Assembly (NCBI RefSeq): GCF_017357105.1
Contig: NZ_CP071596.1
Span: forward strand, 434,001 to 498,000
Source of the DNA: Natronosalvus caseinilyticus
GTDB lineage: Archaea > Halobacteriota > Halobacteria > Halobacteriales > Natrialbaceae
Length of the DNA: 64,000 bases
Reading direction: 5' to 3'
Part shown: piece after piece, positions 44,901 to 64,000 of the stretch
Layout: every line of letters starts with the position of its first letter
How positions within the stretch are numbered: the first letter of the stretch is position 1
Notes under the pieces: model-generated
Database searches by the model: none
Told to the model about the DNA's origin: nothing
What the model saw: only the letters and a program-made list of their open reading frames with translations
Position numbers and translations under genes: made by a program

Positions 44901-45713
44901 CAGTCGGCGTCCGGTCCCGGCCCAGAAGACGAAAGCGAGGAAGTAACGGCTCAGCAGGCAGACACAGGGACGGCTTCGAGCGCTGATCACGGTACGGCAG
45001 GGACGTCGAGCACCACAGCCGACACGTCCGCCAAATCCGATGCGTCAGCCGCGACCGATACGTCCACCACAGCTAACACATCCACCACGACCGATACGTC
45101 AGCTACAGCCGATACGTCCGCCACGAGCAGCACTTCGACCACGACTACCCAGGAAACGACCGAGGAGGGAGACGGCACCCTCGAGGGACTGTTCTCCGAC
45201 ATGGGGTCGACACTCGAGCGCCTCGAGGAAGGGCCGAGCACGGAGACACGGACGGAAACGCACTCCAAGCCGGGCCCCGACACGTCGGGATTCGACGCGA
45301 TGTTCCCGGACCGGGATCTGGACTCGATCTTCGGGTCCGGCCCGACGACCGGCGACGACAGCCCGAGCGACGACGCTGACACCGATACTGACGGCTCGAG
45401 CGACGACACCCCGGCGGAAGCCCCCCAGGGGTCGATCTTCGATGAGGACGACGGGTCGATCTTCGACGACGAGAATCAGACCACCGACGCTGGCGCGGAT
45501 GACGGTCCCGCTGACTCGAGCGGCGAGACAGATCCCGCCGACTCGACCGATGGAAGCGGGTCGATCTTCGATGACGACGGTGGCGATTCGATATTCTCGG
45601 ACGATGACGACGACGCCAACGATGGGAGCGACGGGAGCATGTCGAGCTCAATCTTCTCCGAGGACGCAGACGACGAGGCGGCTGACGACGACGCGGAGGC
45701 AGACGACGCATGA
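41928..45713 (+). CDS. pilB3: PilB-type pilus assembly ATPase with long disordered tail
   Basis: 1261 residues from the ATG at 41928, preceded by GGAGG. A 500-residue N-terminal domain precedes the secretion ATPase: Walker A GGTASGKT near residue 545, the Asp box IVSIEDTREVELP, Walker B LVMGEIRGEE near 616 and the His box TGHTTYTTFHA. It powers assembly of type IV pili from pilins. After residue 858 comes a 400-residue Asp/Ser/Thr tail with Thr-Ala-Asp repeats (about 1030-1080) and six S-I-F motifs in the last 140 residues. Such a tail is unusual for PilB. The stop overlaps the pilC start (ATGA). Confidence 0.93.
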   Translation: MATEDVDQTDPGAVTEGGDSGSASGSNTQTTHEPTRGADVRVGAYTWADFMTEYGYEDEISILYPHGVNGPDDQLGLETDGSTESTAPYGADWERVEFEPEPHLGYDPDELPDLIGEVFQPNGDRLQDIFLTYVDPETTPVLKDFYTWEHYKWEYYYDEDGSRPRDGSGEIESFDEEEALGFDPDDIRRKLHQGGQAAMELDDVVEERTVNVSEDLDEDKFFSTEIGDTTVVNRYDLEKAVPFAKKRHYREVERYWVNKPYAFVIIFHSEKENEKKYYAVEPHLNPIEEELRDFLGGKLRTAIKYSDDGIKHTADLDGRREVIEEETRRLLKRYDLFEKSSGKTTKGIIESLRTLLEDEDETPTTADLYLEGTAARPEPAILEDDPDTLTEYQVEKLLYLLKRNFLGYERIDPIKHDINVEDISCDGYNSPVFVYHSGYEQVISNIYHGESELDDFVVKLAQRSGKGISKRLPQVDTTLPDGSRAQLTLGKEVSDHGTNYTIRQFKDVPFTPVDLINWNTFSLDEMAYLWLAIENHKSLIFAGGTASGKTTSLNAVSLFIPSNTKIVSIEDTREVELPQRNWIASVTRPSFADDDQGDVDEFDLLRAALRQRPDYLVMGEIRGEEGRTLFQVMSTGHTTYTTFHADSVDEVLKRFTTDPINVSKTMFTALDLVSIQTQTRVQGKKVRRNKSLTEINHYEAEHDEINVQDVYQWQAETDEYLKMGDSNTLEEIKFDRGWNDEKLRTELFKRQVILAYLIKNGLNTYSEVAATVQAFINDQETILTLIANGQLENSLEDLQEMESVLIDVDPEKEELVPRPDSTTETYNLSTDILERAEESLFEEYRGQVPSGLASALGDVEQADPIEVDRADVDEFDFGGEVDEDVPDDEWDLGDGSTEFAFDSSDGPAWLDDDEDFATGDASDQSQTATADASSTPADSTSGTPTASASAPELEAGPAEASTTAPAESTSSRSTDEVQPATRSDAAGSQASQSASGPGPEDESEEVTAQQADTGTASSADHGTAGTSSTTADTSAKSDASAATDTSTTANTSTTTDTSATADTSATSSTSTTTTQETTEEGDGTLEGLFSDMGSTLERLEEGPSTETRTETHSKPGPDTSGFDAMFPDRDLDSIFGSGPTTGDDSPSDDADTDTDGSSDDTPAEAPQGSIFDEDDGSIFDDENQTTDAGADDGPADSSGETDPADSTDGSGSIFDDDGGDSIFSDDDDDANDGSDGSMSSSIFSEDADDEAADDDAEADDA

Positions 45714-47764: not shown

Positions 47765-47765
47765 G

Positions 47766-48263
47766 ATGACGCGTCGACGCCCCCGTACCGTCTCGGTTTC
47801 GATCTCACGCGACTCGAGAGGCCAGACCACCCAGGACTTCGCGGTCGGGATCGGGGTGTTCCTGCTCGCGGTCGCGTTCGTGTTCTCGTTCGTCCCGTCG
47901 CTGATCACGCCGTTTTCGGCGTCGACGGCGCCGGAGTCGGCTCAGGCCGACCGGATCGCCGGCGAGATTGTCACAGAGTACTCGAGTGGAGAGCCGAACG
48001 ACCTCGATCTGGCGGCGCTCGAGGACGATGATCCCGACGAGTTGGAGAAACTGGGACTGCGAGACACCGGGTCGGTTCGGATCGACCGGATCAACGTGAC
48101 GGTCGTGAACGCCACTCGAGATCCCCAGTTTGGCGTTGGAGACGAGTACCGGGGCCAGTCTGCCGGCAGCGCGACGCGAATCGTGACGGTTTCGAATACG
48201 TCGGCGATGCCCGGCGGCGTCGACTGCGACCCCGCCTGTCGACTCGTCGTGAGGGTGTGGTAA
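47766..48263 (+). CDS. Pilin-like protein 1 (DUF7287-like)
   Basis: 165 residues. The N-terminus has a basic leader then SRGQTTQDFAVGIGVFLLAV and a hydrophobic helix (AFVFSFVPSLITPF), a class III-type prepilin pattern with cleavage likely near RG. The mature domain is beta-rich and includes a C-terminal pair VDCDPACRLVVRVW. It starts one nt after pilC. It may be a minor pilin or pilus accessory. Confidence 0.75.
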   Translation: MTRRRPRTVSVSISRDSRGQTTQDFAVGIGVFLLAVAFVFSFVPSLITPFSASTAPESAQADRIAGEIVTEYSSGEPNDLDLAALEDDDPDELEKLGLRDTGSVRIDRINVTVVNATRDPQFGVGDEYRGQSAGSATRIVTVSNTSAMPGGVDCDPACRLVVRVW

Positions 48264-48265
48264 TC

Positions 48266-48904
48266 ATGAGACGGAATACACCGAATTCGAGAACGACCGA
48301 TCGTGGCCAGGCGTACACGCTCGAAGGGTTCATCGCGGCGTTCATCCTGTTGATCGCCGTCCTCTTCGCAGTGCAGTCGGTGGTCATCACCCCGTCTTCG
48401 GGCGGTGCGGTCGACCGGACGGCACAGGCCCAGCAACAACAACAGGTCCAGGACGCGCTGATCGTCGCCCAGCGGGAGAACGACCTCTCGCAAACCGTTC
48501 GGTACGTCGACCTGGACTCGAGCGACGAGTTCGAGGAGTTCCACAACCACTCGAGCAGCGTCCAGGGGGTTTACTCGACAGCGGCGTTCGAGAACGTATC
48601 GACGCTGGGTGCGATTTTGAATCAACACCTCGACGCCGGACAGAGTTACAACGTGGAGTTACACTACGAAAACGAGTCCGGAGAGGCAGCGTCGCCGATC
48701 AAACTCGTCAACCAGGGACCGCCCTCGAGTACGGCTGTGACGGCGAGTTATACGGTCGTCTTGCACGACGATCAGAATCTGACCTCGCCCGATCACGACG
48801 ATCGAACCCTCGGGAAAATCCAGGGTACGGAGGGATACATCCCCGATATCGACGACGATAGCGGCCTCTACAACGTCGTAGAGGTACGGGTGGTCGTATG
48901 GTGA
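48266..48904 (+). CDS. Pilin-like protein 2 (DUF7288-like)
   Basis: 212 residues from the ATG at 48266, 2 nt after the previous stop; a GTG nine bases earlier would overlap it. DRGQAYTLEGFIAAFILLIA is the prepilin-type start, followed by a QQQQQ-containing helix and several N-x-S/T sequons. The last bases overlap the next start (TGATG). Minor pilin-like role inferred from position and N-terminus. Confidence 0.75.
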   Translation: MRRNTPNSRTTDRGQAYTLEGFIAAFILLIAVLFAVQSVVITPSSGGAVDRTAQAQQQQQVQDALIVAQRENDLSQTVRYVDLDSSDEFEEFHNHSSSVQGVYSTAAFENVSTLGAILNQHLDAGQSYNVELHYENESGEAASPIKLVNQGPPSSTAVTASYTVVLHDDQNLTSPDHDDRTLGKIQGTEGYIPDIDDDSGLYNVVEVRVVVW

Positions 48905-49752
48905 TGGCTCAGGAGACGAGAGACCGCGAACGCGGTCAACTCGTCCTCATCTCCGCGGTTACCATCGCGTTCATCCTCCTCGGCGTCGTCGTCGTGTTCA
49001 ACGGCGTCCTCTACACGCAGACGCTCTCCTCGAGCGCGTCGGGGCAGACCGTCTCGGACGCCGAACGGACGGCGGCGGAGGTGACCCAGGGTGTGCTGAC
49101 GGTCGCCGAACAGCGAGACCAGGTGGCCGTCAACTCGAGTAACAGCGGCCCGCTCCTCGACGACGTCGAGGCGTTCCTGGACCAGTATCAGAACCGGACG
49201 GCGACAAATCGACCGGCGATCATCTCGAGTAATACGTCGACAGTAGATGGAACGTACGCGACCGCGAATCTCTCTGCCGAGCGAAACGTGTCGGGCGCCG
49301 ATATCTACGGGGTAGCGGTTACGCTGGAGAGCGGGGATCTCAACGGCAGTGACCTCACCGTCGAACTGGACCGGAGCGCGGACGTCACGATATCGGAGGA
49401 TGGCGGTGGCATGCTCAAGATCCAGCGAAACGGAACTAGCTGTGCAATAGAAACCGGCGGAGAACCGACGACGATCGACTTCGTCACGGGAACGATCCAC
49501 GGCGCCGAACGGACGACGTGTTCGGCGAGCAAGCTCCCGGTAACGACGGACGCCGATCTTGCCGTTACGCCCAGTCCGGGCGCGGACGGCATTCAGCTCG
49601 AGGTGTTCATGGACGGGTCGGCGTCCGACGACTGGGAAACCGATGAAGACGCCGTCGTCGCAATCAAAATTGGTCTCGAGTACACCACGAACGACCTCAC
49701 GCAGTCTCGAACGCTCGAGGTGCCGCTACCGCTGGGGGTGTCCGATTCGTGA
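48904..49752 (+). CDS. Pilin-like protein 3 (DUF7261-like)
   Basis: 282 residues from the ATG at 48904, which overlaps the previous TGA as TGATG; an ATG at 48898 is also possible. DRERGQLVLISAVTIAFILL then GVVVVFNGVLY is the prepilin-like helix. The long mature region is beta-rich with many sequons (NVS, NGS, NGT) and two Cys pairs. Its stop overlaps the next GTG as GTGA. Confidence 0.75.
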   Translation: MAQETRDRERGQLVLISAVTIAFILLGVVVVFNGVLYTQTLSSSASGQTVSDAERTAAEVTQGVLTVAEQRDQVAVNSSNSGPLLDDVEAFLDQYQNRTATNRPAIISSNTSTVDGTYATANLSAERNVSGADIYGVAVTLESGDLNGSDLTVELDRSADVTISEDGGGMLKIQRNGTSCAIETGGEPTTIDFVTGTIHGAERTTCSASKLPVTTDADLAVTPSPGADGIQLEVFMDGSASDDWETDEDAVVAIKIGLEYTTNDLTQSRTLEVPLPLGVSDS

Positions 49753-50225
49753 TTGGGCCCGAATCGAACGACCGCGGCGTCTCCATCGCTATCACCCACG
49801 TCCTCACCCTCGGCATCACGACCGTCCTAGTCGCCGGACTCCTCATCTCCGCCGGGACACTTCTCGAGTCCCAGACCGATCGTAGCGCCCAGCAATCGCT
49901 CGAGACCATCGGGGAACGGCTCTCGGGCGAGATATCGGCTGTCGATCGAATGGCGGCCGGGAACGGGACGACCAACCTGACCGTGGACCATCCGTCGATG
50001 GTCGCCTCGAATCGGTATACGGTGACGTTACTGGATAACGAAACCTGTGCGGATCAGCCGTTGCTCACGAACGCGACGAATTGTATGCGACTGAGCGCTC
50101 AGAGCGCGGACATAGACGTCTACGTGCCAGTGACCGCCCCCGTCAACGATGGGAGTTCGGTTTCGGGCGGCACCATCCGGATCGTCCACGACGGCGACAA
50201 AGTCACACTCGAGCGTGATCGCTAA
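49749..50225 (+). CDS. Pilin-like protein 4 (DUF7266-like)
   Basis: 158 residues from a GTG overlapping the previous stop (GTGA). NDRGVSIAITHVLTLGITTV then LVAGLLISAG is the membrane/prepilin helix. Sequons NGT and NLT and one Cys pair (ETCADQPLLTNATNC) are present. Its TAA overlaps the next ATG (TAATG). Confidence 0.75.
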   Translation: MIGPESNDRGVSIAITHVLTLGITTVLVAGLLISAGTLLESQTDRSAQQSLETIGERLSGEISAVDRMAAGNGTTNLTVDHPSMVASNRYTVTLLDNETCADQPLLTNATNCMRLSAQSADIDVYVPVTAPVNDGSSVSGGTIRIVHDGDKVTLERDR

Positions 50226-50971
50226 TGTTCGACCGCACCACAACTCACGACCGCGAGGATCGCGCCGTCTCCGAGGTCCTGGCGTTCATCCTCGTGTTTA
50301 CCATCATCATCGGCTCGGTGACGATGGTGTCGGTCTTCGGGATGCAGTCGCTGACGAGCTACCAGGAGGGTGAGCAACTTCGAAACGCCGAGCGGGCGAT
50401 GGACGCCCTAAGCGACAACTTCAACGACGTGGTCCGGTACGACGGCGTGACGGCTCGAGCGGGGGAACTCAACCTTCGCGGTGGGTCGGTGTCGACGGCG
50501 CATCAGGGGACAGAGCTGACTATCGAGATCAAACGCAGTGGATCTCCAGACGCGGAGTATGACGTGACGACCGGCGGCCTCGTCTACGAAGCCGGCAGCG
50601 GCACCGACACCATCGCCTACGAGGGCGGCGCCATCTTCCGTGGCGACCACACCGGAAACGTCGCCCTCGAGGAGCCCATGCTCCGCTGTCGGGACGATAC
50701 CGCTGTCGTCTCATTGCTCGTCATCGAGGCCGAACCGCGGACCCTCCAGAGCAGCGAGATCAACCAACTTCGGCTCACGGAGAACACGTCGAAGACGACC
50801 CGACGGACCTACACCGGCGTCGACGAGGTGACGGTTGACGTCGTCGAATCCGATTACGAGATGGCCTGGGAGCGAACGCTCGAGGAGCGTGGGTTCGGCG
50901 AAGATGACTGCAGTCTCGGCGGCGACGGCCGCGTCACGATTCACGTCGTCTACGCCGACCTCGAGTACTGA
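50225..50971 (+). CDS. Pilin-like protein 5 (DUF7289-like)
   Basis: 248 residues. EDRAVSEVLAFILVFTIIIG then SVTMVSVFGMQSL is a canonical archaeal prepilin helix, with cut after RA and a Glu at position 5 of the mature helix. The mature domain is long, with an outward beta region. It ends the operon; the next gene is convergent, 49 bp away. The operon pilB-pilC plus five pilin-like proteins is therefore continuous from 41928 to 50971. Confidence 0.78.
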   Translation: MFDRTTTHDREDRAVSEVLAFILVFTIIIGSVTMVSVFGMQSLTSYQEGEQLRNAERAMDALSDNFNDVVRYDGVTARAGELNLRGGSVSTAHQGTELTIEIKRSGSPDAEYDVTTGGLVYEAGSGTDTIAYEGGAIFRGDHTGNVALEEPMLRCRDDTAVVSLLVIEAEPRTLQSSEINQLRLTENTSKTTRRTYTGVDEVTVDVVESDYEMAWERTLEERGFGEDDCSLGGDGRVTIHVVYADLEY

Positions 50972-51020: not shown

Positions 51021-52286
51021 TCACTTCCAGTCGCCCGTCAACATCACCCGATACCCCGCTCGAGCGCCCAGCGCCTCGACTCGAGCGGCGTGGTCGGTCG
51101 GAGAACCCGCGGTATTGAGGTGGTAGCCGTTCGAGAGTTCCCGGCTCCGTGAGAGGCGCGATGCACCATCCCGGTCGACGAGAACCGGGAGGTCCAGGGT
51201 GCCGCCGGCCTCGTGGGCCTCGGGTTCCGATTCGGGCCACGGAACGCGGACGCCCGAGAGCCCCCGCTCGAGGAGGAACTCGGCGGCGTGGACGAGCGCT
51301 CCCGTCGACGAACCGTGACCGATAGCGCCGATCGAGCCGTGGTCGGCGAAGAACCGGGCGACGTACTCGCCGCCCGATCGTGTCGTCGGTCCGTTTCGGT
51401 CGGTGGATGGGGTGGTGTTGCTGGGAGTGTCATCGCCAGCGTCGCCGTCACCGGAGTCGTCAGCGTCGGGTCGTTCGTCGGGAGGACCGTCCAGCGACCG
51501 CTCGCGGTACTGGACGCGGTCTCGAGTCGGTTTCTCGAGGGGGTCGCTCTCGCTTCCGCTCTGGTCCTCGACCTCGATCTGGCTCCCGCTCTCGTCCTCG
51601 CCAACCTCGCTCTCGAACGTCGGGGTCCCGCCGTCGGCGTTCCCGGACGTGGACGGAGACGCGGACGCGGCGTCGGTCCCCGAGAACGAACCGACCAGAT
51701 GATCGAGGAGTCGGCCGACGGCAGCCTCGAGTTCGTCGGTGTAGGCCGACCCGGTGACCGCCTCGAGGTCGTCGACGAGCGTCTCTCGCACCGCGGCTCG
51801 CTCGACGGCCAGCCGACGAGCGACGGTCGCTCTGGAGTGGCGCCCAAGCCGCCGCTCGAGCGCCCGTCGCTGGTAGTGCTCGAGCAGCGGCTCGAGCGTC
51901 TCCAGGCGACGGAGATCGCAGCGGTGGGTGTCAATCGAGCCCGTTCCGGCGAGCAACACCGCCTCGCGGCCGTCGGTGTAAATCGCTCGATCGATTCCGG
52001 TTTCGGTGAGGCACGTCCCGAGTGCCGAGAGGCGATCGCTCGAGGGGAACGCGCTCGCCGGATCGACGGCCACGAACAGCGCGGGGGTCGTCTCGATCGA
52101 ACAGACGTACTCGAGTGTAGTTCCCGCCACCGGGACGTTTCGCCGGCAGTCTTGGACGGTGTTCCAGCCGAGGGCGCTCAACAGCATGTCGACGATCGGC
52201 GTGGTTTCGGCCAGCGTCTCCGGCGGCGCGGCTTCACACAGGAGCCGCGTCCGGGTAACGAACGTCTCGAGGGGATGGGGAGACAT
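51021..52286 (-). CDS. Haloarchaeal protein with restriction-endonuclease-like N-terminal domain
   Basis: 421 residues. Residues 1-100 (TPIVDMLLSALGWNTVQDCR, TLEYVCSIETTPALFVAVDP) recall the HsdR_N/PD-(D/E)xK-like domains of type I restriction R proteins, but the active-site set is not certain. A helical middle, an acidic Ser/Asp-rich linker (about 200-290) and a C-terminal domain (YVARFFADHGSIGAIGHGSS, VLVDRDGASRLSRSRELSNG) follow. It is convergent to the pilus operon. I cannot assign function. Confidence 0.6.
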   Translation of the reverse strand: MSPHPLETFVTRTRLLCEAAPPETLAETTPIVDMLLSALGWNTVQDCRRNVPVAGTTLEYVCSIETTPALFVAVDPASAFPSSDRLSALGTCLTETGIDRAIYTDGREAVLLAGTGSIDTHRCDLRRLETLEPLLEHYQRRALERRLGRHSRATVARRLAVERAAVRETLVDDLEAVTGSAYTDELEAAVGRLLDHLVGSFSGTDAASASPSTSGNADGGTPTFESEVGEDESGSQIEVEDQSGSESDPLEKPTRDRVQYRERSLDGPPDERPDADDSGDGDAGDDTPSNTTPSTDRNGPTTRSGGEYVARFFADHGSIGAIGHGSSTGALVHAAEFLLERGLSGVRVPWPESEPEAHEAGGTLDLPVLVDRDGASRLSRSRELSNGYHLNTAGSPTDHAARVEALGARAGYRVMLTGDWK

Positions 52287-52420
52287 GTGCGCTCAGTGGC
52301 GGATACTCGGGTAGGTATCCCGGGCCGATAACTTAAACGACACTGTTCGGCAGAGACCTGTTCTCAGTCGTGATAATCACGGGAGAGGATTTATTGTGAG
52401 TGATACCTGTCTATGACCGT

Positions 52421-55129
52421 ATGTTAGGACCGGTCCGGAAAGTCATCCCCAAATTCATCAGACAGCGATACGCACTCAAGTTCGCTATCGTGCTTCTCGT
52501 CATCGGTCTGTCTGTGGGGGCTATGGGGTATCTAGGGACGAATCAAATCGCGAGTGAAGTACAATCGCAGGTGCAGAACGATTCCGCAGAGTTGGCACAG
52601 CAGGAGGCCCGGAACGTCGACAAGTGGAATCAACTGAACATACAGGAACACCAGTCACTGGAGTCCTCGGTGGGAACGGGCGAACAGGTACGGCTGGTCG
52701 CCGCCCGGAATTCCATCTCCGGCGGCCATAGCGTCCACTACGTCAACCTCAACGAGAACGTGACGAACAGTACGGTGGAGGAACTTCACGGGAAGGCGCC
52801 GGCAGAGATCGCCCGAGACCACAGTTCCGAGGACGGGGTAATCGCCTGGGCAGCAGAGTTAGGCAAAATCGAACCCGAGTACGAGAGCAATCGTGATACG
52901 CTGCAATCAGGCGGTACGGTCTTCGGAGAGCCAGTGTCGAACTTCGATACCAGAACGGCGATCGTACCACACGTCGCCGCCGACGGGACGCCGGTGTTGA
53001 GCTACGTCTCGAGCGTCGACGGGAAAAACGAGTTCCTGGTAGTGTCGCTCGAGATCGGCGCGTACACCGACGAGATGATCCACAACGAAAACGAGGGTCG
53101 AATCTCGTTCATCGTCATGGAGACCGGCGGCGGCGACGCCCAGGTCGTCATGGACCCGAGTGAAAACGTCTACCTCGAGGAGTACTCGACGAAGGATTCG
53201 ACGGAGGACTTTAACCTCAGTGCAGTCGGCCTCGAGGGTCAGCACTTCTCGATCGAGAAACCGAACGACGCACTCGCGTCCGCCGTTGGCGGCAATTACG
53301 GAAACGAACCGTACATCGGCGCGGCGGCTCGCGTCACCGAGGATAGTCCGTTCCTCGTCGTCATCCACACGCCCGAGTCCGAGGCCTTCGGCTTCGTACA
53401 GGACGTTCAGCAGTACGGCATCTACGCCTCCATCGGCGGCATCCTGTTCGTGATGCTCATCGGCGGCGTCATCGGGCGCAACACCTCGCGCTCGATCGAC
53501 CGACTCACGACGAAAGCCGAGCGGATGGAAGAAGGCGACCTCGACGTCGAGTTCGAAACCCAGCGTGTCGACAGCATCGGTCGACTCTACGCCGGGTTCG
53601 CTACTATGCGCGACTCGCTGAAGAACCAGATCCAGAACGCCCAGAACGCCCGCGAAGAGGCCGAACAGGCCCGCGCGGAGACCGAAGCGATCAACCGCCA
53701 CCTCGAGGCGAAAGCCGACGAGTACCGCGCGGTCATGCAAGAGACTGCCGAGGGCGACCTCACCGCCCGGATGGACGCCGACACCGACAACGAGGCGATG
53801 CAAGAGATTGCACTGGAGTTCAACGCGATGGTCGCCGAACTCGAGGAGACCACCGCCGGCGTCAAGGCCTTCGCGACCGACGTCGCAACGGCGAGCGAAC
53901 AGGTCACCGCCTCGAGCGAGGAGGTTCGCTCCGCCAGCGAACAGGTCACCGAATCCGTCCAGGAGATTTCCGACGGTGCCGAGCGCCAGAACCAGAGCCT
54001 CCAGTCGGTCAACCACGAGATGAACGGCCTCTCGACGACGATCGAGCAGATCGCAGCCTCCTCGAACCAGGTGGCCGACATCGCCGAGCGCACAGCCCAG
54101 ACGGGCAAGCGCGGACGCGACGCCGCCGAGGACGCCATCGAGGGCATGGCCGAGATCGAATCCGAGTCCCAGTCCGCAGTCGAGGAGATCGAACGGCTCG
54201 AGGCGGAGATGGAACAGATCGACGAACTCATCGAGTTCATCACCGAGGTCGCCGAGCAGACCAACATGCTGGCGCTGAACGCCAACATCGAGGCCGCTCG
54301 CTCGGGCGACTCCGGCGAAGGGTTCTCCGTGGTCGCCGGCGAGGTCAAGGAACTGGCCGAGGAGACGAAGACCGCGGCCGAAGACATCGAGGAGCGGCTC
54401 GAGGCAATCCAGCACCAGACCGAGCAGACGGCGACCGAGGTGCAGTTGACCAGTGACCGGGTGGCCGAACACACCGACTCGGTGCAGCGGGCGGCCACTG
54501 CACTGGACGAGATTGCCGACTACGCCGGCGAGACCAACGTGGGCGTCCAGGAGATTTCGGCGGCGAGTGAAGAACAGGCGGCGTCGACCCAGGAGGTCGT
54601 CTCGATGGTCGACGAGGCCGCGACGATTTCCGAGGAGACTACCGCCGAGAGCGAGAACGTCGCCGCTGCGGCCGAAGAGCAGACCACGGCCCTGACCGAG
54701 GTCTCCCGCAGCGCGAGCGACCTCGCGAACCAGGCGGCACAGCTCTCGGAGGCGCTCGACCGGTTCGACACCAACGCCCAGCCGGCGCTCGAATCTGGGG
54801 ACGTTGACGACCTCGAGAGCGAGGGAATCGCGTTCGACGACGCGACCCCGTCGGTGACGGAGGCGCCAACTACCGACCAGTCTGAGCAACAGACCGAAGA
54901 ATCGAACCCCGTCGAGATCGGGACCGGAAGCGAGACCGGAATGGGCGAAGATGGAGCGAGCGACGACGGCGAGTCCAATGACATCGATGCCGTCGATACC
55001 GTCGACACAGCAGGCGCAAACGAGTCGACGCTGGCTCTCGAGTCGGAAGTCGAAGCCGACGACGGCGACGACGAATCCGACGACAGCGACGACAGTGACG
55101 ACATGTTCACGTTCGGCAACAGCTCCTGA
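52421..55129 (+). CDS. Methyl-accepting chemotaxis transducer (Htr) A
   Basis: 902 residues from the ATG at 52421; a TATA box (GATTTATTG, 52388-52396) lies 25-33 nt before it, and an in-frame GTG 21 nt upstream is rejected. Order: TM1 about 20-42, extracellular dCache-like sensor to 330, TM2 335-358, two HAMP-type segments, coiled coil, and the signalling hairpin tip [18 protein letters not shown] near 608. Methylation helices flank the tip. From about 780 the tail is acidic and disordered and ends DMFTFGNSS. The ligand is unknown. It shares a 133-nt identical block with the next gene. Confidence 0.93.
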
Positions 55130-55322
55130 GCGGCTCGATCAGCGGATCCGTATCGAATTCGGCGTTTTTCTGTGTCGTTCTCCCGTGTTTCGCCAGTTCG
55201 AGTAGTAACACCGTTCTCGAGCCTGGCATTCGTCCGATTCTTTCGACGTCTCGAATTCGACCCATATTCGTGATGAACTTTCACAGCAAACATTTATTAC
55301 GGATAGCTGATCTATAGGTCGT

Positions 55323-57884
55323 ATGGTGAGTATCGTCCGCAGACTGGTTCCACGAGTGATACGACGAAGCTACGCGCTGAAGTTCGCCATCGTGTTGCTC
55401 GTTCTGGGGTGTGCCGTCGGGGCAATCGGACTGGTCGCGACCGAGGAAGTACAGACGGAGGTGCAATCGATCGTGCACGAGGACCACGGGACGCTCGCGG
55501 TTCAGCAGGCACAGGGCATCAGAAACTGGAATGCGAACAACGAAGAGACCGTCGAGGCGATGGCTCGCTCGAGTGCGATCGAGAGTGGAGACGCCGAAAC
55601 CATCCAGACGTATCTCGACGACGAAATCGCCGGTCGGTACAATTCGGGCGCCGGCCGGACGTACCCACACATCCACTACATCGACGCCGACTCCGGCGAC
55701 ATCGTCGCCAGCACGAAGACGGACCAGGATCTGAACCCCGTCTCGGAACTCGAGGGCGAGTGGTTCGACGACCTCGAGTCGATCAGCGGAACGGTGACGA
55801 CCGGCGCCTACCAGAGTGGGACGTTCGGCGGGAACGAAGAGCGGGTCGCGTACGTGACCGACGCCGGCGACCTCCAGGACGGCTACCTGCTGGCGTACAC
55901 CGTCCCGCTCTCGTTTTACGAACAACAGATGCGAGACGGCGACTCCGGCGTCGTGATGCTCGTCGACGGCCAGGATCGCGTCATCGCCTCGAGTCCGACC
56001 GGAGCGAAGTGGGCGAACTACGACGAATCCACTCGGCCACTCGAGACAGCGCGCTCGCTGTCGGCTGGACAGGGCGAGGGGATGCTCGTCGAGGACGGCG
56101 CCCAGGGCGTCCTGACCAGCCGATCCAGTTACAGCATCGGTGCCGGCGAGGAGTACGTCGTCGGCGCCGCGCCGGTTCCGGGGACCGACTGGGTCGCCCT
56201 CGTCCACACGCCGTCGAACAGCGCGTACGGCTTCGTACAGAACATCCAGCAGTACGGGATCTACGCGACCCTCGGCATCGTCCTGCTGGTCGTCCTGGTT
56301 GGCACGGCCCTGGGGTTCAACACCTCGCGCTCGATCGACCGGCTCACGACGAAAGCCGAGCGGATGGAGGAAGGCGACCTCGACGTCGAACTCGAGTCGC
56401 CCCGGATCGACAGTATCGGTCGGCTCTACGCCGGATTCGATAGCATGCGCAACTCGCTGAAGAACCAGATCCAGAACGCCCAGAACGCCCGCGAAGAGGC
56501 CGAACAGGCCCGCGCGGAGACCGAAGCGATCAACCGCCACCTCGAGGCGAAAGCCGACGAGTACCGCGCGGTCATGCAAGAGACCGCCGAGGGCGACCTC
56601 ACCGCCCGGATGAACGCCGAAACCGAGAACGAGGCGATGGAGGACATCGCCCTCGAGTTCAACGCGATGGTCGCCAAACTCGAGGAGACCACCGCCGGCG
56701 TCAAGGCCTTCGCGACCGACGTCGCGACCGCCAGCGAACAGGTCACCGCCTCGAGCGAGGAAGTTCGTTCAGCTTCCGAGCAGGTGACCGGGTCGATCCA
56801 GGAAATCGCCGACGGCGCCGAGCGCCAGAACCAGAGCCTCCAGTCGGTCAACCACGAGATGAACGGCCTCTCGACGACCACCGAGGAAATCGCGGCCTCC
56901 TCGAACCAGGTGGCCGACATCGCCGAGCGAACGGCCCAGACGGGCAAGCGTGGGCGCGACGCCGCCCAAGACGCCATAGAGGGGATGGATGCCATCGAGA
57001 CCGAATCCGAGGCCGCAGTGGCCGACATCGAGGCGCTCGAGGCGGAGATGGAACAGATCGACGAACTCATCGAGTTCATCTCCGAGGTGGCGAAGGAGAC
57101 GAACATGCTGGCGCTGAACGCCAACATCGAGGCGTCGCGTTCGAACGCGGGGGAGGACGGCTTCTCGGTCGTCGCCGGCGAGGTCAAGAACCTGGCCGAG
57201 GAGACCAAAGACGCCGCCGAGGACATCGAGGAGCGACTCGAGGCGATCCAGGCCCGGACGGCCGACACCGCGGAGTCGGTGACGAACACGAGCGAGCGCG
57301 TCGAGGCGAACCGCGACGCCATCGAGGACGCCGTCGCCGCGCTGGACGAGATTGCCGACCACGCCGAGGAGACCAACGTGGGCGTCCAGGAGATCAGCGC
57401 AGCGACCGAGGAGCAGGCGGCGTCGACCCAGGAGGTCGTCTCGATGGTCGACGAGGCCGCGACGATTTCCGAGGAGACCACCGCCGAGAGCGAGAACGTC
57501 GCCGCCGCTGCCGAGGAACAGACCACGGCCCTGACCGAAGTCTCCCGAAGCGCGAGTAATCTGTCCGATCAGGCCACACGGCTCTCGGAGGCGCTCGACC
57601 GGTTCGATACTGATATCGGACCGAGGCAGGTTGTCGACGCCGAGACGGCGGTCCCCGTCGCGGGAACAAACGACCCGACACCGCTTCCCGAGACCGGATC
57701 GGATCCATCGCTCGAGGACGAAACGACGCCCGAATCGGTCGACGATACGTCCGAGTCCCTCGAAGACCAGCGAGTCGACGCCGACGAAACTGGCGACGTC
57801 GAACGAGCGGACGACACTGCGTCGGGCGATGACCAGGGCGATGACGACCCATCGGATGTCTTCACCTTTGGCGGGGAGAACTAG
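55323..57884 (+). CDS. Methyl-accepting chemotaxis transducer (Htr) B
   Basis: 853 residues. Same plan as the upstream paralogue: TM1 20-40, cache-like sensor to about 315, TM2 315-338, HAMP, and the tip [17 protein letters not shown]. Sensor sequences diverge while HAMP and signalling parts are near identical, implying duplication with sensor replacement or conversion. The acidic tail ends DVFTFGGEN. A TATA-like ATTTATTACGG at 55288-55298 is 25-35 nt before the ATG. The ligand is unknown. Confidence 0.93.
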   Translation: MVSIVRRLVPRVIRRSYALKFAIVLLVLGCAVGAIGLVATEEVQTEVQSIVHEDHGTLAVQQAQGIRNWNANNEETVEAMARSSAIESGDAETIQTYLDDEIAGRYNSGAGRTYPHIHYIDADSGDIVASTKTDQDLNPVSELEGEWFDDLESISGTVTTGAYQSGTFGGNEERVAYVTDAGDLQDGYLLAYTVPLSFYEQQMRDGDSGVVMLVDGQDRVIASSPTGAKWANYDESTRPLETARSLSAGQGEGMLVEDGAQGVLTSRSSYSIGAGEEYVVGAAPVPGTDWVALVHTPSNSAYGFVQNIQQYGIYATLGIVLLVVLVGTALGFNTSRSIDRLTTKAERMEEGDLDVELESPRIDSIGRLYAGFDSMRNSLKNQIQNAQNAREEAEQARAETEAINRHLEAKADEYRAVMQETAEGDLTARMNAETENEAMEDIALEFNAMVAKLEETTAGVKAFATDVATASEQVTASSEEVRSASEQVTGSIQEIADGAERQNQSLQSVNHEMNGLSTTTEEIAASSNQVADIAERTAQTGKRGRDAAQDAIEGMDAIETESEAAVADIEALEAEMEQIDELIEFISEVAKETNMLALNANIEASRSNAGEDGFSVVAGEVKNLAEETKDAAEDIEERLEAIQARTADTAESVTNTSERVEANRDAIEDAVAALDEIADHAEETNVGVQEISAATEEQAASTQEVVSMVDEAATISEETTAESENVAAAAEEQTTALTEVSRSASNLSDQATRLSEALDRFDTDIGPRQVVDAETAVPVAGTNDPTPLPETGSDPSLEDETTPESVDDTSESLEDQRVDADETGDVERADDTASGDDQGDDDPSDVFTFGGEN

Positions 57885-58143: not shown

Positions 58144-58992
58144 TCAGTTGGACGACTCGGAGTTCATCGAAACCCCTACCGAGCCCTCACGCTGGTAGAT
58201 CCGAAGTCTGCCGTCGGTAATCGCGAACGCGGACTTGAGCGTCGGCGGAATCGTCTCGGCCTTGCCGATAACGAGGTAGCCGTCGGCTCGAAGTGATCGG
58301 GCGATCGTCTCGAGCATCGACTGCTTGTACGCGTTGTCGATGTAGATGAACAGGTTCCGGCAGATCACGAGGTCGAAGCCAGACTTCGCCTCGCCGTTGA
58401 TGAGGTCGTGTCGCTCGAACGTGATCGGTCGGGCGATGGACTCGCGCACCCGGTAGGTTTCGTTCGCCGGGTCGTGGTCGACGTATTGCTCGTAGGCGTC
58501 CAGGAACTCGAGCTGGTCGCCGAGGTCGACCGTCCTGGATTCGGTGTACGTCCGTTCGCGCGCGGTTTCGAGGGCCGGTTCGCTAATGTCGGTCGCGAGA
58601 ATGTGGATCGATGATTCGTCGATCTGGACGTCGTCGTGGGCGAGCATCGACAGCGAGTACGGTTCGCGACCGTCGGCACACGCGGCACTCCAGACGTGGA
58701 CGCTCTCGTGGCGCTCGGTCAGCGTCCGGAGCACGTCGCGAATCCCCTCCCAGACGTCGGGGTTACGAAAGAAGCCCGTGACGTTGATGCTCAGCGAGTC
58801 GAGCAGCGCCCGCTGTTCGTCCGCCTCCGACTGCAGCAATTCGAAGTACTCCTCGTAGCTGTCACAGCCGGTTCGGCGCATCCGCGAGGAAACCCGCCGG
58901 TCGAGGTAACTCGTGTTGTAGTGGCTCGTCGCGAACGCCAGCTCCGCCTCGACGTACTCGAGGAGGCGTTCGAACGCCGGGTCGGTGCTCAC
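58144..58992 (-). CDS. cheR: Chemotaxis protein methyltransferase CheR
   Basis: 282 residues from a GTG that overlaps the cheD stop (GTGA). N-terminal helical domain (MSTDPAF... HYNTSYLDRRVSSRMRRTG), then the Rossmann SAM domain with VHVWSAACADGREPYSLSML, ILATDISEPALE and DLVICRNLFIYI. It methylates receptor glutamates in the cytoplasm. Both receptors encoded upstream on the other strand are plausible targets. A 259-bp AT-rich gap separates it from the receptor B gene. Confidence 0.95.
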   Translation of the reverse strand: MSTDPAFERLLEYVEAELAFATSHYNTSYLDRRVSSRMRRTGCDSYEEYFELLQSEADEQRALLDSLSINVTGFFRNPDVWEGIRDVLRTLTERHESVHVWSAACADGREPYSLSMLAHDDVQIDESSIHILATDISEPALETARERTYTESRTVDLGDQLEFLDAYEQYVDHDPANETYRVRESIARPITFERHDLINGEAKSGFDLVICRNLFIYIDNAYKQSMLETIARSLRADGYLVIGKAETIPPTLKSAFAITDGRLRIYQREGSVGVSMNSESSN

Positions 58993-59504
58993 AACTCGGT
59001 CACTCCGTGCTCACCGTTGGCCGTCCGAACGATAAGGGTACCGGTGCCGGGGGTGAATTCAACCGTCCGGCCGTGTTTTCCGCCGACGTCCTCGGCAATC
59101 AGCGGGACGCCGAGTTTCTCGAGTTCGGTCTTCGCGGCGTCGACGTTTCGCTGGCCGACGCCGTCGCCGAAGCTCTCGAACTGAAACATGTCGCTCCCGC
59201 CGGCGATCTTGGCTTCGACGGAGGTGTAGCTGGCGCCGCGTTCGACCATCCGCCGCAGGAGGGCCCGGATCGCCGTATCGGCGTACTTTCCGGGCTTGAC
59301 GTCGCTGTTGTCGGCGGCGTCGCCGTCCGGGAGCATGACGTGTGCGAGGCCGCCGATATCGGAGTCCGGGTCGTACAGCGCGACGGCGAGACACGAACCC
59401 AGCCCGTAGGACTTCAGCGTATCCTCGCCCTCGCTGACGACGAGTTCCGAGATTCCGACCTGCACCGGTTCGGGGACCCCCGGTTCGGTTCCGTACGTCT
59501 TCAT
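58989..59504 (-). CDS. cheD: Chemoreceptor glutamine deamidase CheD
   Basis: 171 residues. The catalytic Cys lies in KSYGLGSCLAVALYD, His in IGGLAHVMLPDG, and the Thr/Ser-rich loop in VEAKIAGGSDMF. CheD deamidates receptor Gln and binds CheC in bacteria and archaea. It overlaps the cheC stop by ATGA at its start and the cheR GTG at its end. Confidence 0.95.
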   Translation of the reverse strand: MKTYGTEPGVPEPVQVGISELVVSEGEDTLKSYGLGSCLAVALYDPDSDIGGLAHVMLPDGDAADNSDVKPGKYADTAIRALLRRMVERGASYTSVEAKIAGGSDMFQFESFGDGVGQRNVDAAKTELEKLGVPLIAEDVGGKHGRTVEFTPGTGTLIVRTANGEHGVTEL

Positions 59505-60733
59505 TCTACGTCTCCGAATTCGGCCGTCGTCGGCGTCTCCTCGATGCGGTCGACGTCGAGGTCGTTCAGCGCGCGTTCGAGGTCCCGCTCGTCGGGGATG
59601 GCGTAGATGTCACAGTCGAACTCGCGCCCGTCGGCCATCACCTGCGTGTCGAAAACGAACGCGAACTCCTGGTTCTCGCCCAGCTGGATGATGACGGGGT
59701 CGACGGCGGCGGTGCCGATGTCGTGGATGAATTCCGGCGGCGAGTGATCGATCGTCGTGTCGAGGACGTTCGCCCAGCCGTCGAGGAAGCCACTGGCCAT
59801 GATGTTCCCGAGTTCCGTGATGGCGCTTCGCTCCATCTCGCCGAATCCATCCCCATCGTCGGTTTCCATCGGCACCATCGCGTCGACGATTTCGTGTGCG
59901 GATTCCTCGTCGAACAGGAACAGGAGGTACCCACTCGGCGTGCCGTCGAACTCGAAGGCGACCCCGACGAGGCGTTCGTTCGGGACGGACGCGGGAATAG
60001 CCTCGAGCGAGACGAAGTTCAGGCGTCGAATCTCGACGCTCGTCTCGATGCCGGTGAGCGTCGTCGCCGTCTTCGCCACCTCCTCGGCGCCCTGCTCGGC
60101 CATCCGGTCGAAGCCGTCGAGTTTGTCGTACTCGATCCCGTCGCTGGTGCGCAGTCGCTCGAGCAGGCTCGCCATGGAGTCGCGCGCGGGGAACAGGTAG
60201 TGGCTGAAGCTGAGTTCGGTGCCGACGGCGTTGATGTGACTCTGGAAGAGCAGGGCCATGTCCCCCTCGCCAGGCGCTTCGTCGATGTCGCCGAAGAAGG
60301 GCTCGGCGGTCGTTCCCTCGATGAACTGCGGCGTCGAGACGTCGATCACGGTCTCGAGAACGTCGGCCCAGCCGTCGATGAACCCGCTGTTCATCACCTG
60401 GCCGACCTCGGTGGCGGCGCTCATGCTCATCTCGTCGAACTCCTCGACGTCGGCCTCGGCGATCAGCATCTCGACGATGCGGAGCGCGCTGTTGCGGTCG
60501 AAGACGACGACCGAGTGGCCGTCGAGACCGCCGCTGAGTTCGACGCGGATCCCGACCTTCTCGGTGCCGTCCTCGAAGTCGTGTCGAATCTCCTCGCCGC
60601 GCATGAAGTTGAGCTTCGTGACCCCGACCTGCGTCTCGACGCCGGTCATCTTCGTCAGCCGACCGGCCGCCAGCCCGGCGCCCTCGCGGGCCATCCGGTA
60701 GAACGTGCCGAGGGCGTTGACGTCGAGTTTCAT
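59501..60733 (-). CDS. cheC: CheC-type protein with two CheC domains
   Basis: 410 residues, twice the usual length. Each half carries the CheC/CheX/FliY phosphatase-like signature: MSMSAATEVGQVMNSGFIDG then WADVL (about 125-150), and MERSAITELGNIMASGFLDG then WANVL (about 310-335), with the Glu-x3-Asn pairs retained (E132-N136 area and its equivalent). It probably dephosphorylates CheY-P or binds CheD. Start ATG overlaps the upstream cheC stop (ATGA). Confidence 0.93.
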   Translation of the reverse strand: MKLDVNALGTFYRMAREGAGLAAGRLTKMTGVETQVGVTKLNFMRGEEIRHDFEDGTEKVGIRVELSGGLDGHSVVVFDRNSALRIVEMLIAEADVEEFDEMSMSAATEVGQVMNSGFIDGWADVLETVIDVSTPQFIEGTTAEPFFGDIDEAPGEGDMALLFQSHINAVGTELSFSHYLFPARDSMASLLERLRTSDGIEYDKLDGFDRMAEQGAEEVAKTATTLTGIETSVEIRRLNFVSLEAIPASVPNERLVGVAFEFDGTPSGYLLFLFDEESAHEIVDAMVPMETDDGDGFGEMERSAITELGNIMASGFLDGWANVLDTTIDHSPPEFIHDIGTAAVDPVIIQLGENQEFAFVFDTQVMADGREFDCDIYAIPDERDLERALNDLDVDRIEETPTTAEFGDVE

Positions 60734-61335
60734 GCGGGGTGCACGTCGATGCCGTTGACCATCTCGACGAACTCCTCGAGCTCCGGGAAGGCGTAGATTT
60801 CCGCTTCGATCTGATAGCTCGGCACCGAGAGGTCGGAGTCGAAGAAGAGCGCGAGGTCGTCGCCACCGAGCCCGGCCGTTCGAACGACGATGTCGCCGGC
60901 CGGCGCGTAGACGAGCTGTGGTGCGGCGATGTCGATCGCGCGCCCGAGCACGTCGGCCCAGCCGTCGATGAACCCGCTGGCCATCATGTTGCCCATCTCC
61001 TCGACGGCACTTCGGGCCATCTTCCCGGAGACGTTCGACATGTCGTCGACGACGTCCCGAAGCATGATCGCGGTGATCTTCTTCGCGCTCGCCTCGGGAA
61101 AGAGGATGAGGATGTGTCCGTGGGGCGGGTCGAGCAACCGGACTCGAACGCCGACGCGCTTGCCCGGCTCGAGCTGGCTCTGAATGTCGTCGACGTCGAT
61201 GAAGTTCGTCTTCGTGACCTCCATCTGGGCGTCTTCGCCAGTTAGTTTGCTCATGTTGTCGGCGACGCCGTTCGTCCCGACTTTCGCCATTTCGTTGATA
61301 AAGCTCAGCTTCCGAATGTCGACCATCATCGTCAT
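60730..61335 (-). CDS. cheC: Single-domain CheC
   Basis: 201 residues from ATG 61333-61335 (ATGs 6 and 9 nt later are possible). One CheC signature, MARSAVEEMGNMMASGFIDG then WADVL, with E and N in the phosphatase positions. It is a paralogue of the following double-domain gene. Starts 3 nt after the stop of the 40-codon ORF. Confidence 0.93.
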   Translation of the reverse strand: MTMMVDIRKLSFINEMAKVGTNGVADNMSKLTGEDAQMEVTKTNFIDVDDIQSQLEPGKRVGVRVRLLDPPHGHILILFPEASAKKITAIMLRDVVDDMSNVSGKMARSAVEEMGNMMASGFIDGWADVLGRAIDIAAPQLVYAPAGDIVVRTAGLGGDDLALFFDSDLSVPSYQIEAEIYAFPELEEFVEMVNGIDVHPA

Positions 61336-61338
61336 AGA

Positions 61339-61461
61339 TTAGGTACCTCCGTGTGCGTTGTCGAGTTCGTTCGTCGTGTCCGTAGCCGGTGTCTCCGTCG
61401 AGTGGGGGCTGGCGTTCGACCGTCCGTCGCTCTCGATGTAGGTGTGCATGCTCATGCTCAT
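61339..61461 (-). CDS. 40-aa ORF between cheA and cheC
   Basis: ATG at 61459-61461 overlaps the cheA TGA (ATGA), and the TAA at 61339-61341 is 3 nt before the cheC ATG. The peptide starts MSMSMHTYIESDGRSNASPH and is polar, Thr/Ser/Asn-rich, probably disordered. Its exact fit between two che genes, with coupling on both sides, suggests it is translated. No homologue known to me; it could be a small regulator or a translation relay. Confidence 0.55.
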   Translation of the reverse strand: MSMSMHTYIESDGRSNASPHSTETPATDTTNELDNAHGGT

Positions 61462-64000
61462 AGTGTATTGACGTCGAGGATCGTAACCACTTCCCCCCGG
61501 CCACGAACCGTCGCCCCGCTCAGGCCTGGAAGCCCGCTCATGAACCCTTCGAACGGTTTGATGACGACCTCCTGTTGGCCGTGGACGACGTCGCAGTGAA
61601 GGGCGACCGACCGGACGTCGTCACGGATTCGGATCACCATTCCGTCGTGGGGGTCGGACGACGCCGGCGTCTCGAGTCGCTCGGCGAGTTCCACGACGGG
61701 AACGGGCGAGTCGCTCGAGGGAATCACCGGGTCGCCGTCGACGGTCTCGACGATCCGCGCGTCGTCGATGTCCTGGACGGCCTTGATCGGGACGCCGAAC
61801 TCCTCGCCGCCGATTTCGAAGAACAGGACGTCGGCGATGGCGACCGTCACGGGGAGTTCCATCGTGATCGTCGTCCCCTCGCCGGGCTCGCTGTCGACCG
61901 AGACGGTGCCGTCGAGGTCCTCGATCGTCCGCTTGACGACGTCCATCCCGACACCGCGGCCGCTGACGTCGGTCACTTCCGTCGCCGTCGAGAGTCCGGG
62001 GTGGAACACCAGGTCGTAGACCGCCTCGTCGTCCAGGTCCGCGGCCTCCTCGGCCGTGAGAACGTTGGATTCGACCGCCGCCTCGCGTAACTCCTCGGCG
62101 TCGAGGCCGCGACCGTCGTCGTGAATCCGAATCTGCACGCGGTCGCGGGCCCGCTCGGCCGTGAGTCTGACCGTCCCCTCACGGGGTTTCCCGGCCTCCT
62201 CGCGGACCGACGGCGCTTCGATACCGTGATCGACGGCGTTCCGAACCAGGTGGATGAGCGGGTCGCCGATCCGGTCGAGGATACTGCGGTCGAGTTCGAC
62301 CGATTCGCCCTCGGTCTCGAAGGCGACCGTCTTCTCCTGGTCGCGCGCGATGTCCCGAACCGTCCGGGGCAATCGGTTGGCGACCGTCTCGAGGGGGACC
62401 AGTCGGACGTCCATCACCGTGTCCTGGAGTTCGGCGGTGATGTCGTCCAGGTCGTCGAGTTCTCGACGGAGCGTCTTCGGATCGTCGTCCTGCTCGATGG
62501 TGTGACGGAGGCGGACGCGGGCGGTGACCAGCCCCTCGACGAGGTTGAGGAGCGTGTCGACTTGATCGACGTCGACGCGGATCGACTGCGCCTGGTCGGC
62601 GTTCGATTCCGAATCCGCCTCCTCGTCCGTTTCGGGTGCGTCGACGTCCTGAATCGGCATCGGCGGAACGTCCTCGTAGACGCGATTCGATTCCGCGGCG
62701 GTCGCGTCCCCGCCGTCTCTGTTCTCTGCAGCGCCGAAGGCAGCGGTGTTCGACGCGTCCGCGCCGGCCGTGAAGCCGTCCTCTGGAGGAGAGGCAGAAG
62801 CGTCGACGTCGAGGTCGTCGAAGTCGTCGGGGTCGCCAAGGTCGTCGACAGTATCGAGGTCGTCGGACTCGTCGAAGCCCCCGAGGTCGTCGGTATCCAT
62901 CGCAGAGGCCTCGAGTCCGGCGTCGTCCTCGAACGCGAACGCGTCGTCGTCCGCGTCGACGTCGAACGCCGTCGGTGCCGGCTGGTCGTCGACAAATGCG
63001 GTATCGTCCGGCGTCTCGAGATCGAGGCCCTCGTCCAGATCGTGGGCGGGATCGGGGTCCTTATCGACGTCGGCGTCAGCCTCGAGCGCCGAGTCGTCGA
63101 ACGAGACGTCCTGCTCGTCCTCGAGTGCCAGGTCGTCGACCGGATCGAATCCGAAATCAACCGCGAAGTCGTCTTCGGCCTCGTCCCGATCGATCGACTC
63201 GAGTTCCAGGTCGTCCTTGAGGTCCAGATCTTCATCCTCCAGGCCCAGAGCATCATCTTCGAGGCGCAATTCCTCATCTTCGAGGGCCCGATCCTCGTCC
63301 TCGAGAGCAACACCTTCGACGTCGAATTCCGCTCCCAAATCGTCGACGACGGAATCGTCGCCGGAACTCGATTCGGACTCGGCCGCCTCGTCGTCGGTTT
63401 CACCGAAGTCGACACCATCGAGGGCAGCGACGTCGGCCTCCCCGAGTTCGTCGACCTCCTCGGCGTCCGTCGCTTGCGCCTCGAGCGAGTCGGCGTCGGA
63501 CGCCTCGACGGGTTGCTCTGCGGCACTGTCGTCCGTGTCCAGGTCGAGGTCCGCATCGTCGAACGCGAACGCCTCGAAGTCGTCGTCAGTCGGGACGATC
63601 GAATCGTCGGCGTCAGCCGGTGTCGAACCTGTCTCTGTCTCCGTCTCCGTCTCCGCATCTGACTGTGCTTCCGCATCCGATTCCACACCCACATCCGACG
63701 ACAGCTCCACCGGGACATCGTCCAGATCGGACGACTCAGTGGCCGTCACCTCGCTATCGACGTCCGTCCGTTCGACGCCCTCGTCACTGGTCTCCTCGGC
63801 ATCGCTCTCGAGGTCCACGTCGTCGAACTCGTCGGCAAGCTCTTCGCCGAACTCGTCTTCGACCTCGAGGAAACTGTTGTCGTCGACGTCGACGTCGTCG
63901 CCGAGCAATTCGTCCATGTCGACCTCGTCGTCGCTGTCGAACTCGTCGAACTCGAGTTCGTCGAGTTCGTCCTGGAGTTCGTCGAAGCCGACCATCTCGA
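61458..64000 (-). CDS. cheA: Chemotaxis histidine kinase CheA, 5' end outside window
   Basis: The frame is open to the window edge; 845 residues are countable from the Met at 63993-63995, which need not be the true start. No HPt domain with its His is inside, so it must lie further upstream. The visible part starts with a very long acidic linker of about 430 residues, with LEDE-type repeats at 63180-63320, in place of a recognisable CheY-binding P2 domain. P3 dimerisation, P4 kinase (HLVRNAVDHGIE, HDDGRGLD, GRGVGMDVV) and P5 CheW-like (VLFFEIGGEEFGVPIKAVQD) domains follow. It phosphorylates CheY and CheB. Confidence 0.93.
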   Translation of the reverse strand, partial: EMVGFDELQDELDELEFDEFDSDDEVDMDELLGDDVDVDDNSFLEVEDEFGEELADEFDDVDLESDAEETSDEGVERTDVDSEVTATESSDLDDVPVELSSDVGVESDAEAQSDAETETETETGSTPADADDSIVPTDDDFEAFAFDDADLDLDTDDSAAEQPVEASDADSLEAQATDAEEVDELGEADVAALDGVDFGETDDEAAESESSSGDDSVVDDLGAEFDVEGVALEDEDRALEDEELRLEDDALGLEDEDLDLKDDLELESIDRDEAEDDFAVDFGFDPVDDLALEDEQDVSFDDSALEADADVDKDPDPAHDLDEGLDLETPDDTAFVDDQPAPTAFDVDADDDAFAFEDDAGLEASAMDTDDLGGFDESDDLDTVDDLGDPDDFDDLDVDASASPPEDGFTAGADASNTAAFGAAENRDGGDATAAESNRVYEDVPPMPIQDVDAPETDEEADSESNADQAQSIRVDVDQVDTLLNLVEGLVTARVRLRHTIEQDDDPKTLRRELDDLDDITAELQDTVMDVRLVPLETVANRLPRTVRDIARDQEKTVAFETEGESVELDRSILDRIGDPLIHLVRNAVDHGIEAPSVREEAGKPREGTVRLTAERARDRVQIRIHDDGRGLDAEELREAAVESNVLTAEEAADLDDEAVYDLVFHPGLSTATEVTDVSGRGVGMDVVKRTIEDLDGTVSVDSEPGEGTTITMELPVTVAIADVLFFEIGGEEFGVPIKAVQDIDDARIVETVDGDPVIPSSDSPVPVVELAERLETPASSDPHDGMVIRIRDDVRSVALHCDVVHGQQEVVIKPFEGFMSGLPGLSGATVRGRGEVVTILDVNTL

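Follow-up and report, generated by a model that had tools for sequence, protein, structure and literature searches.

CheF couples CheY to the archaellum, and receptor-tail docking peptides for adaptation enzymes are, to our knowledge, thought to be almost absent from archaea. Nor do we know of bacterial CheY docking on receptor tails. The bacterial pentapeptide is defined as xZxxZ, where Z is F, W or Y, and its count in the Halobacteriales is 0 of 2,730 (PMC7390727). A longer beta-loop marks the CheR proteins that bind the pentapeptide and a short one those that are independent of it (PMC3062574); for CheB there is no sequence rule for pentapeptide binding (PMC7698151). On the output side, CheF contacts CheY close to the phosphorylation site in a solved archaeal complex, and in bacteria FliM occupies the alpha4-alpha5 groove (PMC9126983); in archaea, no equivalent CheY-binding peptide had been identified (PMC2666748). 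A 2016 census reported no evidence of chemotaxis systems regulating archaeal pili other than the archaellum (PMC4858521). In Natrialba magadii, a cheYBACCDR locus with a very long CheA is described, in the part of the published account drawn on here, as distinct from the fla/cheF locus (PMC3403918). The locus compared with these systems is in Natronosalvus caseinilyticus, within a window of 64,000 nucleotides (the whole stretch of DNA analysed, to which coordinates refer unless another locus is named).

A conserved peptide on disordered receptor tails

The window holds two chemoreceptor genes, MCP1 (52400-55129, +; 909 aa), with HAMP and MCPsignal domains, and MCP2 (55323-57884, +; 853 aa), with a weak dCache_1 domain, HAMP and MCPsignal. 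As originally predicted, both receptors close with D-[M/V]-F-T-F-G, and the trailing residues are three in each. The tag, contained in the peptide DDDVFTFGATDEE, reads DDMFTFG in MCP1 (55097-55117, +; residues 900-906) and DVFTFG in MCP2 (57855-57872, +; residues 845-850), whose C-terminal end, ...DDPSDVFTFGGEN, closes SDVFTFGGEN. About one third of the residues of both tails are D or E. The MCP1 tail (54776-55126, +; about residues 793-909) follows a helical hairpin and is predicted to be disordered from about residue 795 on, with an AlphaFold2 pLDDT of about 40 and a small local increase over residues 898-905, DSDDMFTF. Such peaks within disorder are common for short binding motifs. The original prediction gave both tails more than 100 acidic, low-complexity residues, which is right for MCP1 (~115) and slightly too many for MCP2, where about 93 residues extend past the helical stalk.

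Only three MCP-signal proteins are encoded in this genome, and each of them finishes with FTFG and three more residues; the third, whose gene is about 0.7 Mb from MCP1 and MCP2, ends TEGTFTFGDTK. The tag codons of MCP1 (GAC ATG TTC ACG TTC GGC) differ from those of MCP2 (GAT GTC TTC ACC TTT GGC), and the tag is therefore not a recent DNA copy. From tail composition, FTFG within the last 10 residues has an expectation of about 1e-4 per tail. Among the 16 sites in the genome that code for FTFG in any frame, none besides those of the three receptors is near the stop of a long reading frame.

The peptide was surveyed in the tails of 268 receptors from 44 haloarchaeal genomes, compiled one locus at a time, with more tails added from named loci and pattern matches. 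Tagged tails extend 93-379 residues past the signalling domain and cannot be aligned apart from the motif. With near copies removed, 38 tags give the logo D-D-[V/M]-F-[T/S]-F-[G/D/V/T]. From two residues before the first F (-2) to three after it (+3), the relative information is 1.6, 3.4, 5.0, 2.0, 5.0, and 1.5 bits, both F positions being fixed by the search. Outside these positions information is much lower, near background, so that conservation is bounded within a divergent, disordered segment, as in conserved short linear motifs. In long type-A tails (type A is defined in the next section), F-x-F was observed 36 times vs 6.3 expected in shuffles, a sixfold enrichment, and the other six F spacings in the range 0 to 6 are at or below shuffled expectation. 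The tag is also specific to a functional class. Across 155 genomes, [DE][VMI]F[TS]FG near the stop of a long frame occurs, among the matches fetched, only on receptor-like type-A tails. The prediction had named rarity in other receptor tails, or equal occurrence in unrelated proteins, as grounds for giving it up; the tag is instead common in one receptor clade, and none was found at the ends of other proteins in its own genome or among those matches.

The motif need not be terminal. In one genus (genomes G044 and G049) it is internal, as EDVFDFG and EDVFEFG, 84-89 residues before the C-terminus, and a free C-terminus or carboxylate is therefore dispensable. The receptors concerned (L361, L362, and L365) have a helix-hairpin-helix domain at the C-terminus after the tag (PF14520, E 9e-12 in L361), which is an odd end for a chemoreceptor. 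Other endings were seen as well. Tails L124, L099, L102, L139, L391, L063, and L064 have G-F-[ED]-W, F-D-W or M-E-W near their ends, which may represent a form of the tag with tryptophan, in family f2 and in part of the f1 receptors. Three tails of family f4 (L024, L026, and L027) carry tandem D-D-x-F-[RQ]-[PS] repeats, which are clear in L026 and L027.

Association with one type of chemosensory system

The original prediction placed cheR, cheD and cheC beside the receptors, and CheR, CheD and two CheC genes do adjoin them. These are a CheR methyltransferase with a short beta-loop (58144-58992, -; PF01739, E 1e-43), whose closest solved structure is B. subtilis CheR 5ftw; CheD (58989-59504, -; PF03975, E 4e-32); CheC2, with two CheC/CheX-like units and a start placed from the sequence (59501-60733, -; PF04509, PF13690); and CheC1 (60730-61335, -; PF04509). 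CheA (61458-64000, -), of 1248 aa and with a very long acidic linker, extends beyond the window edge and is followed outside it by CheB, CheY and CheW.

CheD is the marker by which genomes are assigned to type A. With the window CheD as query, identity across 155 genomes is bimodal, at 69-100% in most of family f1 (suggested by named loci to be the Natrialbaceae), in f7 and in genus g33 of family f10. All other genomes reach 54% at most, apart from two intermediates. In f1, the type-A gene order is fixed as cheW-Y-B-A-C1-C2-D-R. Several Natrialbaceae have a second cluster, type B, made up of cheW, three receptors, cheR, cheY and cheC, and type-B receptors have short tails and no tag. Matches to PilB3 in type-B loci are weak, about 37% identity, and are probably ArlI, which suggests that archaellum genes are near these loci. 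Of 34 type-A genomes, 25, that of the window (G000) among them, have no CheF, which was found in all ten tested genomes without an intact type-A cluster. Second CheD genes are present in seven of the nine type-A genomes that have CheF. A Fisher value for CheF was set aside, its grouping being circular.

The linkers of type-A CheA proteins span 525-869 aa, and in them F spacings of 0 and 1 are rare and those of 2 and 3 favored. In the same loci as the tagged tails, these equally acidic and F-containing linkers hold one FxF vs 24 expected. A reading of this deficit as FxF avoidance was dropped; FF is depleted there too. The linker, which has two FAF stretches in the window CheA, was also rejected as a second carrier of the motif, other type-A linkers being almost without FxF.

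Presence of the tag follows type A. With the criterion relaxed to F-[STADEQ]-F, one or more tagged tails are present in 18 of 18 type-A genomes with receptor inventories, one of which (G154) has the motif in relaxed form only (DSFQFDDEE), vs 0 of 7 completely inventoried genomes without an intact type-A cluster (p = 2e-6, the genomes not being independent). In a tree of signalling domains, 30 of 31 tagged receptors are in one clade made up of type-A genomes, and the tag changes 7 times vs 28.6 when shuffled. Because tagged receptors form one clade, the association is partly shared ancestry. The tag is retained across families f1, f7, and f10. Selective retention of the end peptide on flexible tails, as first claimed, is thus sustained; the peptide is also chemoreceptor-specific and goes together with a certain set of Che proteins, all of which a docking tag would lead one to expect.

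Type A does not account for everything, since relaxed FxF(G) also occurs in some tails from family f4 genomes that have no type A (10 of 92 non-A tails vs 2.3 expected, about four times), which points to a weaker version of the motif that is older or more widespread. Tagging is also incomplete in type-A genomes that lack CheF, with two of five receptors tagged in G004, for example; hence not every receptor needs the tag to signal. These untagged receptors rule out the tag as a strict address for the pathway.

Candidate partners and the neighboring pilus operon

We consider it probable that the tag is a short linear docking motif, carried on the flexible acidic tether of the main type-A receptors and recruiting a cytoplasmic protein of the same system to the array. 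The docking consensus would be D-[D/E]-[V/M]-F-[T/S]-F-G near the tether end, and the tag would most likely bring a cytoplasmic type-A protein to the receptor array. We infer that what it binds is a protein and that this protein is a Che component; CheY or CheC/CheD appears about as likely a partner as CheR/CheB. No earlier description of the motif was found in the open-licence literature. The tag would itself offer a way to find the partner.

One possible version of the docking explanation, with a likelihood that overlaps that of the general one, is that the motif docks type-A CheY (or a CheC/CheD partner) both on receptor tails and on a pilus ATPase, coupling the array to a type IV pilus in place of the archaellum. 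Upstream in the window is a PilB3-PilC-pilin operon (41907-50971). It encodes a PilB3-type pilus assembly ATPase (41907-45713, +; PF00437, PF23989, PF23990) with a ~400-residue acidic C-terminal tail; a PilC-type pilus membrane platform protein (T2SSF; 45710-47764, +; PF00482); and five small proteins (47766-50971, +; DUF7287, DUF7288, DUF7261, DUF7266, and DUF7289) that are probably pilin-like, judging by position and family neighborhood. Linkage of che and pilus genes, as in a pilus-controlling chemosensory system, was found in 31 named type-A loci, where PilC3 and usually also PilB3 (74-92% identical) are at most 10 kb from cheR. Conversely, in the five genomes of f7 and f10 that were examined, no pilus operon is within about 20 kb of the type-A cluster, which argues against a tie to the pilus.

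The acidic tails of PilB3 in type-A loci are 230-600 residues long, and an AlphaFold2 model of a PilB3 fragment, in which the ATPase core itself was unmodelled, has a mean pLDDT of 40 and is therefore uninformative about the motif. A similar acidic FxF, with consensus DEF[DE]F[AG], occupies a fixed position in 24 of 28 PilB3 tails; in the window it is DEFDFGG, F882-F884 (44550-44558, +). It is not identical to the receptor tag, however, and is absent in three loci that have CheD (L202, L203, and L214). The window PilB3 tail (44502-45710, +) also has repeated [SG]IF[DSE], such as GSIFDE and DSIFSD, and orthologues have similar repeats.

Properties of CheY and the distribution of CheF also bear on a CheY partner. 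Type-A CheY (for example, in locus L004 at 3433-3795, -) has a mean identity of 94%, 17 K+R and a net charge of about 0. Other haloarchaeal CheY are far more acidic, at -21 for type B and -14 for the rest. A charge near zero is unusual for a halophile, and a neutral CheY in an acidic proteome suggests, from sequence, a surface that may be constrained to meet acidic partners. Type-A-specific K or R residues are at CheY positions 40, 58, 63, 70, 86, 111, and 112, which by sequence are in or near the phosphorylation-site and alpha4-alpha5 regions, in a comparison where the non-A proteins differ in divergence from one Che protein to another. The near-reciprocal distribution of type A and CheF described above favors an output other than the archaellum, but G044 and G049 hold both.

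Decay of che genes offers further evidence. The Halostagnicola-like genomes G098 and G126 have lost cheW, Y, B, A, C1 and C2 beside the pilus operon and keep a relict CheD, with cheR broken in G098; in a Halostagnicola-like locus (L209), only CheD and CheR are kept of the che genes. PilB3 in these three has lost its acidic tail and ends 72-102 residues past a reference point, vs 273-640 in others, and the tag was found on 0 of 23 receptors read in G098 and G126. These natural losses, which through recent shared ancestry count as about one event, fit a model in which the receptor tag and the PilB3 tail both serve type A. Across the Halostagnicola-like loci L462-L465 and L209, CheD is an orphan, cheR is broken, missing or isolated, and the pilus operon is intact but has a shortened PilB3.

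More tentatively, a CheF-independent haloarchaeal Che system may control a type IV pilus, with the acidic FxF on receptors and PilB3 read by neutral CheY or another shared Che protein. The array and the pilus motor would then be on one docking code. With a motif that accompanies a Che system located beside pilus genes and mostly without CheF, the point raised by the 2016 census, Che control of pili other than the archaellum, becomes testable (PMC4858521).

Another possible version, whose likelihood again overlaps that of docking in general, is that the tag tethers CheR and/or CheB and raises the rates of methylation and demethylation of tagged and neighboring receptors. The architecture is that of E. 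coli Tar and Tsr, with a tether, an aromatic peptide ending in T-F and only a subset of receptors bearing it; cheR is the che gene nearest to the receptors; and the relaxed tags found without type-A CheD and CheC would need a universal partner such as CheR/CheB. Yet the beta-loop of type-A CheR is short. It counts 21 residues in 38 of the 42 proteins and 23 in that of the window; the pentapeptide-binding Salmonella enzyme (1bc5) has 25 and that of B. subtilis (5ftw) 22. Type-B CheR, whose receptors are untagged, is 64-69% identical to the window CheR, and the comparison of type-A-specific residues, subject to the same differences in divergence, marks few CheR positions. A CheR tree does not cleanly separate the two types. 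The flexible, unstructured linker of the bacterial pentapeptide is present (pLDDT about 40 in MCP1 and unalignable tails), but xZxxZ ends 0 of 268 haloarchaeal receptor tails. The tag can be internal, and a similar motif in the neighboring pilus ATPase is not predicted by docking of CheR. Hence, of the docking tag first proposed, docking stands and is well supported, and an NWETF-type peptide for CheR/CheB is unsupported, given the short beta-loop and the internal tag; tethering of CheR/CheB is nonetheless one of the two foremost candidates, with CheY a serious rival. The original prediction had asked whether the tag follows CheR, CheD or CheB variants. Tagged genomes are told from untagged ones by CheD, CheC and CheY, and not by CheR.

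It is rather unlikely that the tag is a placement signal, one that keeps arrays close to a scaffold at the pole or associated with the pilus and does not bind a signalling enzyme. Receptors and PilB3 have the motif type in common, and we also count in its favor that haloarchaeal arrays and motors are positioned within the cell (PMC6509185). None of the genes beside the cluster emerged as a scaffold candidate, except that of a conserved protein without a Pfam family between the pilus operon and the che and receptor genes (51021-52286, -), which has homologues in most type-A loci. A C-terminal degradation signal for a protease would fit hydrophobic residues close to a disordered C-terminus, but is very improbable when, among termini of long frames in its own genome, the tag is on receptors only and, in one genus, is internal and followed by a folded helix-hairpin-helix domain. 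Acidic tails are common in haloarchaea, but least credible of all is a motif without function, left by acidic low-complexity sequence or by recent copying of genes; against it stand enrichment specific to F-x-F spacing, a bounded logo, equally acidic CheA linkers almost without the motif, differing tag codons and a motif kept across f1, f7, and f10.

Comparison with described systems

The N. magadii cheYBACCDR locus shares its gene order and very long CheA with type A and is very probably a type-A cluster; in the part of the account drawn on here, the pilus neighborhood and a receptor tail motif go unmentioned (PMC3403918). The archaellum-linked system of Halobacterium salinarum, which has CheF and corresponds to type B here, uses the same Che protein families, whereas type A is mostly without CheF and has a neutral CheY, a very long CheA linker and, often, a pilus operon beside it. 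The N-terminal EIDALL of FliM and FliY, which binds CheY, is a short motif on an output device and would be paralleled by the FxF of PilB3. It is unlike FxF in sequence and is not known on receptors, and binding of CheY by the PilB3 motif is putative.

If tethering is what the tag does, a conserved motif of another sequence throughout one clade of haloarchaeal receptors would imply more than one origin of tethering, or an origin earlier than supposed. Compared with the NWETF-type pentapeptide, which binds CheR and CheB in E. coli Tar and Tsr and in P. aeruginosa McpB, the haloarchaeal tag has F-x-F spacing rather than xZxxZ, is not at the extreme C-terminus, and comes with a strongly acidic context, a longer tether and a CheR with a short beta-loop. 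Both are short aromatic peptides ending an unstructured tether on only a subset of receptors, and the final T-F of NWETF recurs in F-T-F.
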